Shown: positions 44,034 to 49,173 of the stretch, one piece after another
Layout: each line of letters opens with the position of its first letter
How positions within the stretch are numbered: the stretch's first letter is position 1
DNA from: Roseibacillus persicicus
GTDB lineage: Bacteria; Verrucomicrobiota; Verrucomicrobiia; Verrucomicrobiales; Akkermansiaceae
Assembly (NCBI RefSeq): GCF_014651675.1
Contig: NZ_BMXI01000003.1
Coordinates: forward strand, 195,604 to 259,603
Length of the DNA stretch: 64,000 bases
Direction: 5' to 3'
Notes under the pieces: model-generated
Database searches by the model: none
Seen by the model: the letters and a program-made list of their open reading frames with translations, nothing else
Told to the model about the DNA's origin: nothing
Program-made: the position numbers and the translations under genes

Positions 44034-44148
44034 AAGGAGCACGGGCGTCCCGCCTGTGAACCCCATCGCCTCAACGGCGCGTTCCCATTCAATCAACCTT
44101 CCCGCTTCCCAATCATTCCATTCGCTGGCGGGACGCCTACGCTCCTTG
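44034..44148. repeat. REP/BIME-like element, GGAGCACAGGCG family, copy B (degenerate)
   Basis: Left unit AAGGAGCACGGGCGTCCCGC begins at 44034, and the inverted right unit GGCGGGACGCCTACGCTCCT lies at 44127-44146. Both arms carry point changes relative to copies A and C, so the hairpins are weakened. Confidence 0.75.
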
Positions 44149-44328
44149 AATACTCTCATCATCTCCCGTCCTCTTCGCTTTTCCAAATCAAACCCCTCCC
44201 GCGCCACCACCCGGACAAAGACAGTTTCCGCTCGCCCTCGCTCTTCGACGGCTAGGGCAATTTGCCTGGCAATATCTTTGGCTGCTTCAAAGACCACCTT
44301 CGAATCATCGAACGCCATCTCCTCTCTT

Positions 44329-44445
44329 CAAGGAGCACAGGCGTCCCGCCTGTGAAAGTGACAATGGGGAAAGTTGAGGGCAGTTTGGATAAGGAAAGTA
44401 CCGTTGGGGCGGCAGGGTTCACAGGCGGGACGCCTGTGCTCCTTG
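44329..44445. repeat. REP/BIME-like element, GGAGCACAGGCG family, copy C
   Basis: Left unit CAAGGAGCACAGGCGTCCCG starts at 44329 and runs to 44356; the inverted right unit at 44416-44445 contains ACAGGCGGGACGCCTGTGCT. Both arms are near-perfect hairpins (CACAGGCG/CGCCTGTG). Read as protein, this family yields STGVPPV and TGGTPVLL. Confidence 0.85.
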
Positions 44446-44561
44446 ACGAAAGAACACCCAAACTTCCTCCTCCCCGTCGCAATTGAACAATTACGATTCC
44501 AAATCCCTCTGCTGGACAAAAGAAAGGAAGGTCGTAGCCTTTCGGGCAGTAAATTATAGCA

Positions 44562-45704: not shown

Positions 45705-46586
45705 ATGCACGACTTCATCGACCACAATCTTCTCGCCCGCCTCTCGGCCCTCCCGCTGGAAAGCCGGCAGGCGATGATTGGCAGCGTGGCGGGAAAGCAC
45801 CGCTCGCCCCATCGCGGCTCCTCGGTCGAATTCGCCGAGTATCGCAAGTATGTCCCCGGCGACGATACCCGTCGCCTGGATTGGAAAGCCTTTGCCCGCT
45901 CGGACCGCTTTTACATCAAGGAGTTCGAGGCCGACACCAACCTGCGCGCCTACTTCGTGGTCGATTCCTCGGGCTCGATGAACTTTGCCAGCGGTGAGAC
46001 GGATACCAAGATTCAATATGCGCGCCGCATCGCCGCTTCGCTCTCCTATCTGTTAGTGAAGCAAGGGGACGCCGCCGGGCTCTCGGTCTGCAACGACAAG
46101 ATTCACCTCGAGATCCCTCCATCGCGTTCCGCCTCCCAACTGCAGCACATCTTCAACTCGCTGGGTGAGCTGGAGCCAAAGGGCGAGACCGGACTCGTGG
46201 AAGCCCTCCACACCGTGGCGGAAAAGATCAAGCAACGCGCCCTCGTGGTCATTCTCTCCGATCTCTTCTGCGATCCCGAAGAGCTTGGCGACGCTTTGCA
46301 ACACCTGCGCTATCGCAAACACGACATCGCCATCTTCCACCTGTTAGACAGGCAGGAGATCGACTTTGCCTTCGACCGTCCCCATCGCTTCGTCGACCTC
46401 GAGGACAATTCCACCCTCGTCGCCGAGCCCAACCTCATCGTCGACGAGTATCACGCCGCCCTCAACGAATACCTCACCAAAGTCGAAGCCAAAGCCCACG
46501 ACGCCCAAGCCGACTATCAGCGAATCGTCACCGATCAAGACTACGAGGCCATCCTTTCCGACTTCCTCACCAACCGACTGAGGTGA
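45705..46586 (+). CDS. DUF58 domain protein
   Basis: A 293-residue protein of the DUF58/VWA-like family. The core GSSVEFAEYRKYVPGDDTRR, then LDWKAFARSDRFYIKEFEAD near residues 38-75 is the family hallmark, and AYFVVDSSGSMNFASGETDT near 82 contains the DxSxS metal-ion site of VWA domains. It lacks transmembrane segments. The ATG follows the MoxR stop directly (TAAATG), so the two are coupled. The four-helix-bundle element begins 31 bases after its stop. Confidence 0.9.
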   Translation: MHDFIDHNLLARLSALPLESRQAMIGSVAGKHRSPHRGSSVEFAEYRKYVPGDDTRRLDWKAFARSDRFYIKEFEADTNLRAYFVVDSSGSMNFASGETDTKIQYARRIAASLSYLLVKQGDAAGLSVCNDKIHLEIPPSRSASQLQHIFNSLGELEPKGETGLVEALHTVAEKIKQRALVVILSDLFCDPEELGDALQHLRYRKHDIAIFHLLDRQEIDFAFDRPHRFVDLEDNSTLVAEPNLIVDEYHAALNEYLTKVEAKAHDAQADYQRIVTDQDYEAILSDFLTNRLR

Positions 46587-46617
46587 TTCGAAGGATTGGT
46601 GGAGAAGAGAAAGCTCA

Positions 46618-46655
46618 TGAGGCCTTGAAAAACCGAATGTTCAAAAACTCAAAAA
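46618..46655 (+). repeat. Left inverted repeat of the IVP element
   Basis: 38 bases, AT-rich, perfectly inverted at 47101-47138. It ends six bases before the start codon of the enclosed gene, so the stem can hide the region upstream of the start. Confidence 0.95.
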
Positions 46656-46661
46656 TCAAAA

Positions 46662-47030
46662 TTGATGGCGAAGGGAACACAGTACGAGCTGCAAGAGCGA
46701 ACCTATCAGTTCGCGGTTTCGGTTCGTCGTGTTCTTTCAGAAGAGGACCTGCCTCCGGTTTGTTGGGAGGATTCCAAGCAACTTCTTCGTTCGTCCGGTT
46801 CGGTAGGAGCGAATTATATCGAGGCCAACGACTCACTTTCTCAGCGGGACAAAATCTATCGCATGCGTGTCGCCCGAAAAGAGGCTTCCGAGTCCCGCCA
46901 CTGGGCCCGCCTTCTCTCTCAAACCCTTCCCGCCTCTCTTCGCGACGAGATGGCAACCATCGAAGACGAAGCCGATCAACTTGCCCGCATCCTCACAACC
47001 ATTGTCAAAAAACTCCCACCCGCCGAATAG
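46662..47030 (+). CDS. Four-helix-bundle protein (23S rRNA IVP / S23 family)
   Basis: A 122-residue all-helical protein of the family first found in intervening sequences of Leptospira 23S rRNA and related in fold to the Avd protein of diversity-generating retroelements. Family marks are LQERTYQFAVSVRRVLSEED near the N terminus, LLRSSGSVGANYIEANDSLS near residues 40-60, and RMRVARKEASESRHWARLLS near 67-88, ahead of a last helix with DEADQLARILTTIVKKL. No ribosome binding site is clear; the upstream region lies in the inverted repeat. The molecular function of the family is not settled; nucleic-acid binding is suspected. Confidence 0.92.
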   Translation: MMAKGTQYELQERTYQFAVSVRRVLSEEDLPPVCWEDSKQLLRSSGSVGANYIEANDSLSQRDKIYRMRVARKEASESRHWARLLSQTLPASLRDEMATIEDEADQLARILTTIVKKLPPAE

Positions 47031-47100
47031 CGCGACCTCAAGCCCTCTCCAATCCTTGCCCCACCATTCCGTCTCCACACCCTACAACACCCCTCTTTGG

Positions 47101-47138
47101 TTTTTGAGTTTTTGAACATTCGGTTTTTCAAGGCCTCA
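47101..47138 (-). repeat. Right inverted repeat of the IVP element
   Basis: Exact reverse complement of 46618-46655. It begins 70 bases after the stop of the four-helix-bundle gene and ends 37 bases before the BatA-type start codon. Confidence 0.95.
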
Positions 47139-47175
47139 CCAGCCCGCCGCCCTCCTTTCGACCACGAACAATAGC

Positions 47176-49173
47176 ATGTCCTTCCTTCAACCAGCCCTCC
47201 TTTGGGGACTCCTTGCCGTCTCCCTGCCCATCATCATTCACCTCCTCAACCGGAGAAGGCACCGCACCGTCAAGTGGGCGGCGATGGACTTTCTACTTAA
47301 GGCGACGCGGGAGTCGCGGGGTAAGAAGAAGCTGAAGCACATCCTCATTCTCACCTGTCGTGCCTTGGCGGTGGCGGCTTTGGTCTTTGCCATCGCCCGC
47401 CCCCTGTTAGGTGGCTTCCTGGGATTCGGAGCCAGTGTGGATACCGTGGTGCTCATTTTGGATCGCTCGGCTTCCATGGAGCGAACCGAAGCCGATGGTC
47501 AACCGAGCAAGCGCGAGCTCGTGCTGCAACAAGTGGCCGATGCAATGAGCGAACTGGAGACCGCGCGACTCGTTCTGTTAGACTCCGCCACCGGCGAAAT
47601 GTCGGAGGTGCCTTCGCCGGAGATTTTGCCCGAGCTTTCCACGACCAAGCCTACCGATACCGCCGCGGACTTGCCCAGCCTCCTTGCCACCACCTTCGAT
47701 TACCTGCGCGCGGCTCAACCCGGACGGACCGAGATCTGGTTGGCGACCGATTTGCAATTGGCCAACTGGCGCACCGACGATTCCCGCTGGCCGGCCTTTG
47801 CGCAAACTCTCAATGACCTGCCTTCGCCAACTTCCCTGCGGATTCTCGCTTTGCCGGAAACTCCCCGCGACAACCGCAGCATCCGCTTGCTGTCTTCCCG
47901 CCGGGGCGAAAAGGAATTGACCCTGGAACTGGAGCTCTCCCGCGACGAGTCCACGGGCGGAGCAACCGTTCCCGTGACCATCAATCTCAATGGCGCTCCG
48001 ACCACCGACACCGTCACGGTAGAGGGACAGAACCTACGCTTCAGCCGCACCCTGCCCCTTCCCAATGCGGAGGCCAAGGGTTGGGGACGGGTTTCCCTGC
48101 CGCCCGATCCCAACGTGCGCGACAACCACCTCTACTTTACCTACGGCGAACAGCAGCCTTTGCTCACCACCCTCGTTCACGATGGCACTTTGCCGAATGA
48201 CGCCATGGCAGCTCTCACGCGCGCAGTGGCTCCTCCGGGACTGGACACTTTTCAAATCGAGAAGCTGGAACTCGCGGGCCCCAATCCGGACGTAGCCTCG
48301 CTCGACCTGAGCAAGAGCGCGCTTCTCATTTGGACCGCCCCCTTGCCCACCGACACCGCCGCCGTCATCGTACGCAGTTATTTGGAAAGTGGCGGACAGG
48401 TGCTTTTCCTGCCAAACGAGACCGATCCCGACGCCACCTTTGCCACCCTCGCTTGGGAACCGATTCAGACTGCTCCCGCAGGAAAATTCTTCATCGCCAG
48501 CGACAATTGGCGCCGCGACGAAGGCCCCTTCCGCGACGGTCAGGATGGAACGCCCCTGCCCGTGGACCAACTCCGTAGCATCAAGCGACTCCCGCTCGCT
48601 TCCTCCACCGACGCCATCCCGTTGGCCAGCTGGGATGATGGCTCACCGCTTCTGGTGCGCAAGGTCTTGGGCCAAGGCACCGCGCACTTGCTCACCACTT
48701 TGCCGGACTACACTTGGTCCGACTTGGAGCAGACCGCGCTTCACCTTGTTTTGGTTCAACGCTTGTTAGAAGCCGGAGCGCAGCGGCTCGATGAAAACAG
48801 CCAGTCAGCCGGTCAAGCGACCACCACCAGTGCCAGCCTCATTGACTCCGCTCTGAACGATGCCAACTACCCCTACTCGGCGGGTATCTATCGCGATGAC
48901 AATGGCGACTCCGGCCTCATTGCGCTCAATCTTCCCGCATCCGAGATCACCTTGGACAAACTCGATTCCGGCGAAATCGAAAAGACCCTTCTTCCCGACA
49001 CCAAGGTCAGCTTCTTCGAGCAAAAGACCGAAGCCGACAGCAGCTTGTTGCAGGAAATCTGGAGACCCTTCCTCCTCGCCATGCTGCTCTTCCTCCTCGC
49101 GGAAGCCATCTTGACCCTCAACAAAAAGCCCGCAACCAAGAGCGAGGCCAAGAGCAAGAAGGCCACTGCATAA
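47176..49173 (+). CDS. BatA-type membrane protein with VWA domain
   Basis: A 665-residue protein. The N-terminal BatA domain is seen as FLQPALLWGLLAVSLPIIIH near residue 3 and HILILTCRALAVAALVFAIA near 56, giving two transmembrane helices. A VWA domain follows (VVLILDRSASMERTEADGQP near residue 94, with the DxSxS site). Residues 280-640 are beta-rich and include a glutamine-amidotransferase-like stretch. One last helix (FLLAMLLFLLAEAILTL) and a Lys-rich tail end it. It is the partner of the MoxR and DUF58 genes, from which it is separated by the IVP element. Confidence 0.88.
   Translation: MSFLQPALLWGLLAVSLPIIIHLLNRRRHRTVKWAAMDFLLKATRESRGKKKLKHILILTCRALAVAALVFAIARPLLGGFLGFGASVDTVVLILDRSASMERTEADGQPSKRELVLQQVADAMSELETARLVLLDSATGEMSEVPSPEILPELSTTKPTDTAADLPSLLATTFDYLRAAQPGRTEIWLATDLQLANWRTDDSRWPAFAQTLNDLPSPTSLRILALPETPRDNRSIRLLSSRRGEKELTLELELSRDESTGGATVPVTINLNGAPTTDTVTVEGQNLRFSRTLPLPNAEAKGWGRVSLPPDPNVRDNHLYFTYGEQQPLLTTLVHDGTLPNDAMAALTRAVAPPGLDTFQIEKLELAGPNPDVASLDLSKSALLIWTAPLPTDTAAVIVRSYLESGGQVLFLPNETDPDATFATLAWEPIQTAPAGKFFIASDNWRRDEGPFRDGQDGTPLPVDQLRSIKRLPLASSTDAIPLASWDDGSPLLVRKVLGQGTAHLLTTLPDYTWSDLEQTALHLVLVQRLLEAGAQRLDENSQSAGQATTTSASLIDSALNDANYPYSAGIYRDDNGDSGLIALNLPASEITLDKLDSGEIEKTLLPDTKVSFFEQKTEADSSLLQEIWRPFLLAMLLFLLAEAILTLNKKPATKSEAKSKKATA

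Follow-up and report, generated by a model that had tools for sequence, protein, structure and literature searches.

Why a gene of the IVP (S23, four-helix-bundle) family should stand between perfect inverted repeats, in the gap between two other protein-coding genes, is the question raised by a locus of Roseibacillus persicicus in the window analysed here, a stretch of DNA of 64 kb. Proteins of this family have a solved structure, are listed as CRISPR-associated and occur in rRNA insertions, yet to our knowledge no role has been assigned to them.

The two cores of the locus (Table 1) are perfect 38-nt inverted copies of each other, with six bases between the left repeat and the TTG start and the IVP gene in between, all exactly as given in the preliminary description. 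When perfect pairs of at least 16 nt with arms less than 1 kb apart are ranked, they form the longest inverted pair of the window, followed by pairs of 29 and 20 nt. The extended arms measure 48 nt, are 94% alike and score 40.5, compared to a maximum of 13.0 in 200 dinucleotide shuffles. Their repeat is of the 8-nt kind (identity of 0.50 at lag 8 and 0.37 at lag 7). As a separate observation, a different palindromic repeat (AAGGAGCACAGGCGTCCCGCCTGTGAA and variants), which is REP/BIME-like, occurs in several copies in the region 44039-44444; a perfect 29-nt inverted pair spanning 44328-44446 is among them.

Table 1. Features of the IVP locus and its flanking host genes (window positions).
Feature	Position	Strand	Remark
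Upstream host gene, DUF58 protein	45705..46586	+	flank for junction comparison
Left inverted arm, octad-like repeat, perfect core 46618-46655	46613..46660	+	solo copies elsewhere in genome
IVP/S23/four-helix-bundle gene, TTG 46662 or ATG 46665	46662..47030	+	PF05635, TIGR02436; dN/dS 0.22 against the G001 orthologue
Right inverted arm, perfect core 47101-47138	47096..47143	-	
Downstream host gene, BatA N-terminal domain protein	47176..49173	+	

The open reading frame between the arms matches PF05635 (1e-10; 42.2 bits against a cut-off of 33.8) and TIGR02436, 'four helix bundle protein' (3.4e-17; 62.6 bits against a cut-off of 24). It thus lies above the curated cut-off of the IVP/TIGR02436 family and also has the Q-R-S-N-E...E residues. 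Six positions are near-invariant (93-100%) in 112 IVPs and all present in the window protein: Q39, R42, S46, N50, E53 and E76, counted from ATG 46665. They could form a binding or active face, and a similar motif, GxxRxxxSxxxNxxE, has been published before (available part of PMC3936711). At an E-value of 0.001, PF05635 is the sole domain match, with no transposase domain and no HUH/Y1 transposase, and PADLOC found nothing. The structure predicted from this one sequence is helical with a mean pLDDT of 60, too weak for a fold search, while a sequence search of solved structures returned 2rld as the only match at an E-value of 0.1. Solved relatives of IVP are pentameric rings. The domain matches of the neighbouring genes (AAA_3/MoxR-type ATPase, DUF58 and BatA) agree with the MoxR-DUF58-BatA cluster recognised earlier.

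Similar arms are found around many other IVP genes. Loci were chosen regardless of their flanks: 29 from relatives via the window protein (L029-L057), 30 from 48 genomes of varied phyla, and 60 of the further places listed for these genomes, taken roughly in rank order with some near contig ends skipped. Together with the four of R. persicicus, 123 loci were given, 112 of which were usable, the rest running off the contig or having a broken frame. The sample of diverse genomes was drawn from the matches listed for an 18-nt A-rich stretch, mostly in unrelated AT-rich genomes, and is biased towards such genomes; PF05635 was found in 28 of the 48, and up to 19 matches occur per genome. At 78 of the 112 usable loci (22/29, 14/23 and 42/60 in the three sets) inverted arms beat all 100 dinucleotide shuffles, and 34 loci fail this test. 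The R. persicicus genome (5.28 Mb, 92 contigs) contains three further IVP genes above the cut-off, each with its own low-complexity, more or less periodic flanks. Two of these (L011 and L013) pass; the third (L012) is among the failures, with periodic flanks that match poorly and a score of 11 that is reached by 11 of 100 shuffles. Arms are also present in six of six loci on cyanobacterial plasmids, taken from 21 records without prior sight of their flanks, and in five of the ten usable loci of a gammaproteobacterial set (16 given), four of which score at least 14.

None of 19 usable HepT loci (30 given) from the same 48 genomes passes the arm test, only two of 400 random windows of 360 nt score at least 14, and four of 134 small open reading frames beat 40 shuffles, an IVP gene being one of these four. 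These three controls rule out a low-complexity artefact as the cause of the arms. In most loci tested, across several bacterial phyla, inverted arms go with the IVP gene family. One IVP locus among those of the relatives (L032, genome G022) was seen to lie amid several copies of a longer repeated segment, whose open frames share, for example, LSFLGFEIW and LKLIWKLARGNS.

The anatomy of the arms was derived from 75 IVP loci with a score of at least 14 that no shuffle equalled, leaving out three lower-scoring loci that also beat the shuffles. Arm identity peaks at lags 7 and 14 (0.60 and 0.59) and lies at 0.23-0.35 for all others, and the best lag is 7 in 56 loci and 8 in 12. The arms mostly share one orientation: on the strand reading towards the gene from either side, G exceeds C in 66 of the 75, with 10% C on the upstream side. 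The span from arm to arm is 434-560 nt for the middle half of the loci. An upstream flank compared to its own downstream flank scores a median of 18 (n = 42), compared to 9 against the downstream flank of another element in the same genome (n = 120; four at 14 or more). Such low crossed-pair scores rule out that the arms are a repeat spread over the genome and open to any gene. Each element has arms private to itself, built of degenerate repeats of 7 nt or sometimes 8 nt.

Like inverted arms were also observed around genes of a different family, GxxExxY (PF13366, PDDEXK_3; L315-L344 from the 48-genome survey), at 15 of 24 usable loci (30 given). Where these arms score at least 14 (n = 14), the best period is 10 in seven and 8 in five, with units such as ACGCAGAG or CACAGAGA. 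Besides IVP, then, another protein family goes with arms, and these have a period of their own.

In orthologous pairs, both arms of an element can change together while the IVP gene stays under purifying selection. The arms of the window element and of a relative's locus (L010 and L029) score 40.5 and 29.5 within the elements and only 9.5 and 10.5 between them; for another pair (L200 and L202) the values are 16.5 and 20.5 within and 7.5 and 9.5 between. In nine of nine IVP pairs dN/dS lies at 0.07-0.22, though members overlap between pairs and synonymous changes are saturated in some. A close pair (L233/L236) has kept its arms, and a counter-example to turnover is provided by L011 and its counterpart in Roseibacillus ishigakijimensis (L263, genome G093), which are 71% alike over 966 nt and have arms conserved between the genomes (13 and 23).

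What keeps the two arms alike might be sought in RNA. According to this explanation, the arms pair in a DUF58-IVP-BatA transcript and RNase III cuts the stem, which would separate the messages and gate translation of the IVP gene. Indeed, the RNA of the window stretch folds computationally into the full long stem that the preliminary description had foreseen (z of -6.1), and RNase III excises the intervening sequence of Coxiella 23S rRNA, as stated in the available part of PMC4990558. However, the arm mismatches of the 75 loci comprise 62 G-U against 81 A-C, plus 167 transversions, so changes that are neutral to pairing are not favoured. Because there is no excess of G-U over A-C, RNA pairing is not what keeps the arms alike, and selection on pairing, one of two causes suggested earlier for the perfect match, is rejected as the cause of the arms. 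Moreover, arms also occur alone, and on a Nostoc plasmid an IVP gene with arms is opposite in direction to both of its neighbours; since it runs against both, no operon message is separated there. RNA processing is thus an improbable account of the element, although RNase III cutting may occur as a side effect, because the RNA would fold into a stem.

A second explanation regards the arms as operators or terminators that IVP binds, thereby regulating its own or adjoining genes. It finds a basis in the position of the arms, which lie near start and stop codons in many loci: the median gap between arm and start codon is 8, 61 and 29 nt in three IVP sets, and that between stop codon and arm 9, 6 and 8 nt. 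Self-regulation, on the other hand, needs no mirrored downstream arm, and solo copies, one of them inside priA, are left unexplained. We consider this explanation very unlikely.

The host junction itself shows how the element is distributed among relatives. The DUF58 gene was found at 1e-90 in 69 of the family's 79 genomes; the junction was examined in the 30 for which loci were returned, one of which ran off the contig, leaving 29 scored. Four of them (G000, G001, G031 and G130) have an IVP gene between DUF58 and BatA, with gaps of 465-589 nt. In the other 25, including congeners of each filled genome, there is no IVP gene and the gap measures -4 to 94 nt, so that junctions without the gene, which the preliminary description proposed to look for, do exist. 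On a host tree of DUF58 and BatA, presence of the IVP gene requires four changes, three of which are forced. One clade (100/100) unites the four junction IVPs with two from other places, and the four alone form a clade in 16% of the bootstrap trees. No two of their arm pairs are the same; significance is reached by three, whereas the pair of G031 is weak, its 13.0 against a shuffle maximum of 14.0 not being significant. Recurrent arrival at the junction needs fewer clean losses than one old insertion. Both are possible, an old presence followed by many losses because the four share their clade with two others.

The extended arms of G130 (score 47.5) reach into both host genes, by 9 nt at the end of DUF58 and by 6 nt at the start of BatA. 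We attribute this overrun to the copying of one arm as DNA; since a near-inverted AAGCAC/ATGCTT is already present at the junction site in a congener (G145), the element may instead have inserted at a near-palindrome that occurs there naturally. No target-site duplication was found at the junction, the flanks of IVP-free junctions being too diverged for a clear comparison.

Evidence for dispersal is most direct in a single genome, G105, where two loci on different contigs (L230 and L239; C209 and C29) share 83% identity over positions -39 to +424, the gene itself measuring 390 nt. The match ends 34 nt past the gene (30 in the other), beyond which only short pieces of arm repeat match. Because the pair is alike over gene and arms only, the two travel together, and L045 and L057 from two genomes display the same pattern. 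The IVP gene and its arms thus disperse as a unit, with one clear same-genome pair, which bears out the earlier idea of a small mobile-type element. No recent jump of the window element itself was seen, its nearest IVPs outside the DUF58-BatA junction being about 41% identical. Elsewhere in R. persicicus, the flanks of L013 (C16) are 79-80% alike to those of L049 in G043; the arms differ and the IVP genes are unalignable as DNA. These are possibly two separate arrivals at one junction.

Arms also exist without the gene. In the R. persicicus genome, seven solo copies of the window arm are located on contigs without an IVP gene above the cut-off, so the inverted repeats that border the gene also turn up by themselves in this genome, as in REPtrons. 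Two of the solo arms form the ends of 113-nt direct repeats that flank an open reading frame of 742 amino acids (L167: 2947-3059 and 5403-5515; C1), these repeats starting one base ahead of the arm's inner end. Another lies, together with other low-complexity repeats, in frame inside priA (L007:348-2732, C4), whose profile matches are interrupted between residues of about 377 and 433. The preliminary description had held it against a mobile element if the arms formed a family standing alone and unconnected to IVP genes. The first part holds at seven places; the second does not, as inverted arms accompany most IVP loci tested. A strict scan of 400 kb of this genome for heptad arrays returned none at 80% identity at lags 7, 8 and 10 and one array at lag 12; because it is too strict for degenerate arms, we claim no density of solo arrays.

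It could be argued from such findings that heptad arrays are older repeats of the host and that IVP genes merely insert between inverted ones. Solo arrays and gene-less convergent pairs do exist, and many heptad arrays are described for Xanthomonas in the available part of PMC4692102. Yet the arms are private to each element rather than common to the genome, gene and arms were copied together in G105, and one junction holds four IVPs with four arm pairs, compared to only the short gaps of its IVP-free counterparts. A mere preference for existing arrays as targets is therefore unlikely.

The published heptameric repeats deserve closer comparison. According to the available part of PMC4692102, the unit is GGGAATC in Xanthomonas and GGGGA(C/T)T in Nostoc, copies are mostly intergenic, and two Xanthomonas genomes contain 70 and 75 convergent pairs. 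That part also calls their role unresolved as of 2015 and finds them generally unassociated with mobile elements; in Nostoc PCC 7120, such repeats are reported to be absent from the plasmids and inverted pairs to be few. The repeats thus share with the IVP arms a 7-nt unit, a mostly intergenic position and, in Xanthomonas, convergent pairs; in contrast, they are described there without any gene. Cyanobacterial STRR are grouped with them by description.

A search for three GGGAATC units in 369 genomes of a Vibrio's class hit one genome, that of a gammaproteobacterium (G515), with 19 matches. Its only IVP gene, which has a broken or shifted frame, is flanked by GGGAATC heptads that likewise converge. 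The ten matches listed out of these 19 fall at five other sites, comprising four gene-less convergent pairs and one single array. This IVP fails the automatic arm test (score of 8.5) because the frame used takes in the heptads, which were found by eye and by pattern. Another genome, flagged by the reversed control pattern (G303), has an IVP gene with 31-of-31 inverted arms of another heptad. IVP genes are present in 8 of the 38 other genomes of this search. It is thus common for an IVP gene to lack GGGAATC, which is what one would expect of elements that each have a private heptad. The IVP arms on plasmids of Nostoc and Calothrix are G-rich heptads of similar look to the published ones. It is possible that IVP genes are linked to the orphan heptameric repeats of Xanthomonas and Nostoc as their source.

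Among known systems, the rRNA intervening sequences (23S/16S, S23p ORF) have the same protein family and likewise a gene within inverted ends. That of Coxiella 23S rRNA measures 428 nt, close to the spans given above, and carries tandem heptamers before its ORF (available part of PMC4990558). Mobility of such sequences was already proposed in older work cited there, and intervening sequences scattered over CPR rRNA genes are reported in the available part of PMC11270868. Unlike these, the window element is situated between DUF58 and BatA genes instead of inside an rRNA gene, and the arms here are heptads or octads without a sign of selection on RNA pairing. Scanning 20 other IVP loci, several with flanks conserved across genomes, against Rfam gave no match at the gathering score. 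Given that IVP genes are abundant and that no known RNA family covers any of these 20 loci, rRNA appears to be only one of many places where the element lands, and the earlier suggestion of an element that has left rRNA is not borne out. The best reading is that rRNA intervening sequences are a special case of a class of small DNA elements.

REPtrons (TnpA-REP/RAYT) offer a close parallel in organisation: one small gene bordered by inverted repeats, whose cognate REP/BIME repeats are dispersed alone or as inverted pairs (available part of PMC8266576). They differ in that the IVP element has no HUH tyrosine transposase, that its arms are degenerate period-7 repeats and not GTAG-headed palindromes, and that IVP genes occur in several copies per genome, one of which was dispersed with its arms in G105. 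Unlike in an insertion sequence or the parent element of a MITE, no recognised transposase domain is found in the gene between the arms. The Avd protein of diversity-generating retroelements is reported to be homologous to PF05635 (available part of PMC10053308), and a CRISPR association of IVP is reported in the available parts of PMC3936711 and PMC10910872. On an Anabaena plasmid the order is cas6-IVP-cas4, with arms of which the right one overlaps the annotated cas4 start. The CRISPR association may reflect landing between cas genes, as on this plasmid. Among the matches listed from the open-licence literature, we found no report tying IVP genes outside rRNA to inverted heptad arms, which is not proof of novelty.

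Taken as a whole, the stretch 46613-47143 is probably a member of a widespread, REPtron-like class of small DNA elements, each an IVP gene within inverted arms of 7- or 8-nt repeats. We infer that the IVP protein, presumably as a ring, would recognise the heptad arms, and that the element would land in gaps between genes, rRNA genes included. By analogy to the RAYT gene and its REP/BIME repeats, it may shed gene-less derivatives, and the likeness of the two arms would be maintained at the DNA level, one serving as the model for the other through a template switch or gene conversion. A candidate for the strand-joining enzyme is the IVP protein, via its conserved polar residues, or else a host enzyme; we know of no catalytic domain in IVP proteins. 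A broader proposal, to which we give slightly less than even chances, is that IVP and arms constitute a new class of mobile element, present in at least four bacterial phyla, in which a putative IVP ring recognises and propagates 7-nt repeats. The heptads of Xanthomonas, Nostoc and other bacteria would then be its solo arms and gene-less pairs, and GxxExxY nucleases with arms of period 10 (or 8) would represent a second, parallel class.

If true, the link between IVP and its arms would explain why an IVP gene is found between cas genes and would give an origin to the heptameric repeats, for which the 2015 paper could name no settled role. The rRNA intervening sequences would become one landing site of a general DNA element, and both the role of IVP and the origin of the heptads would be testable by a simple DNA-binding assay.
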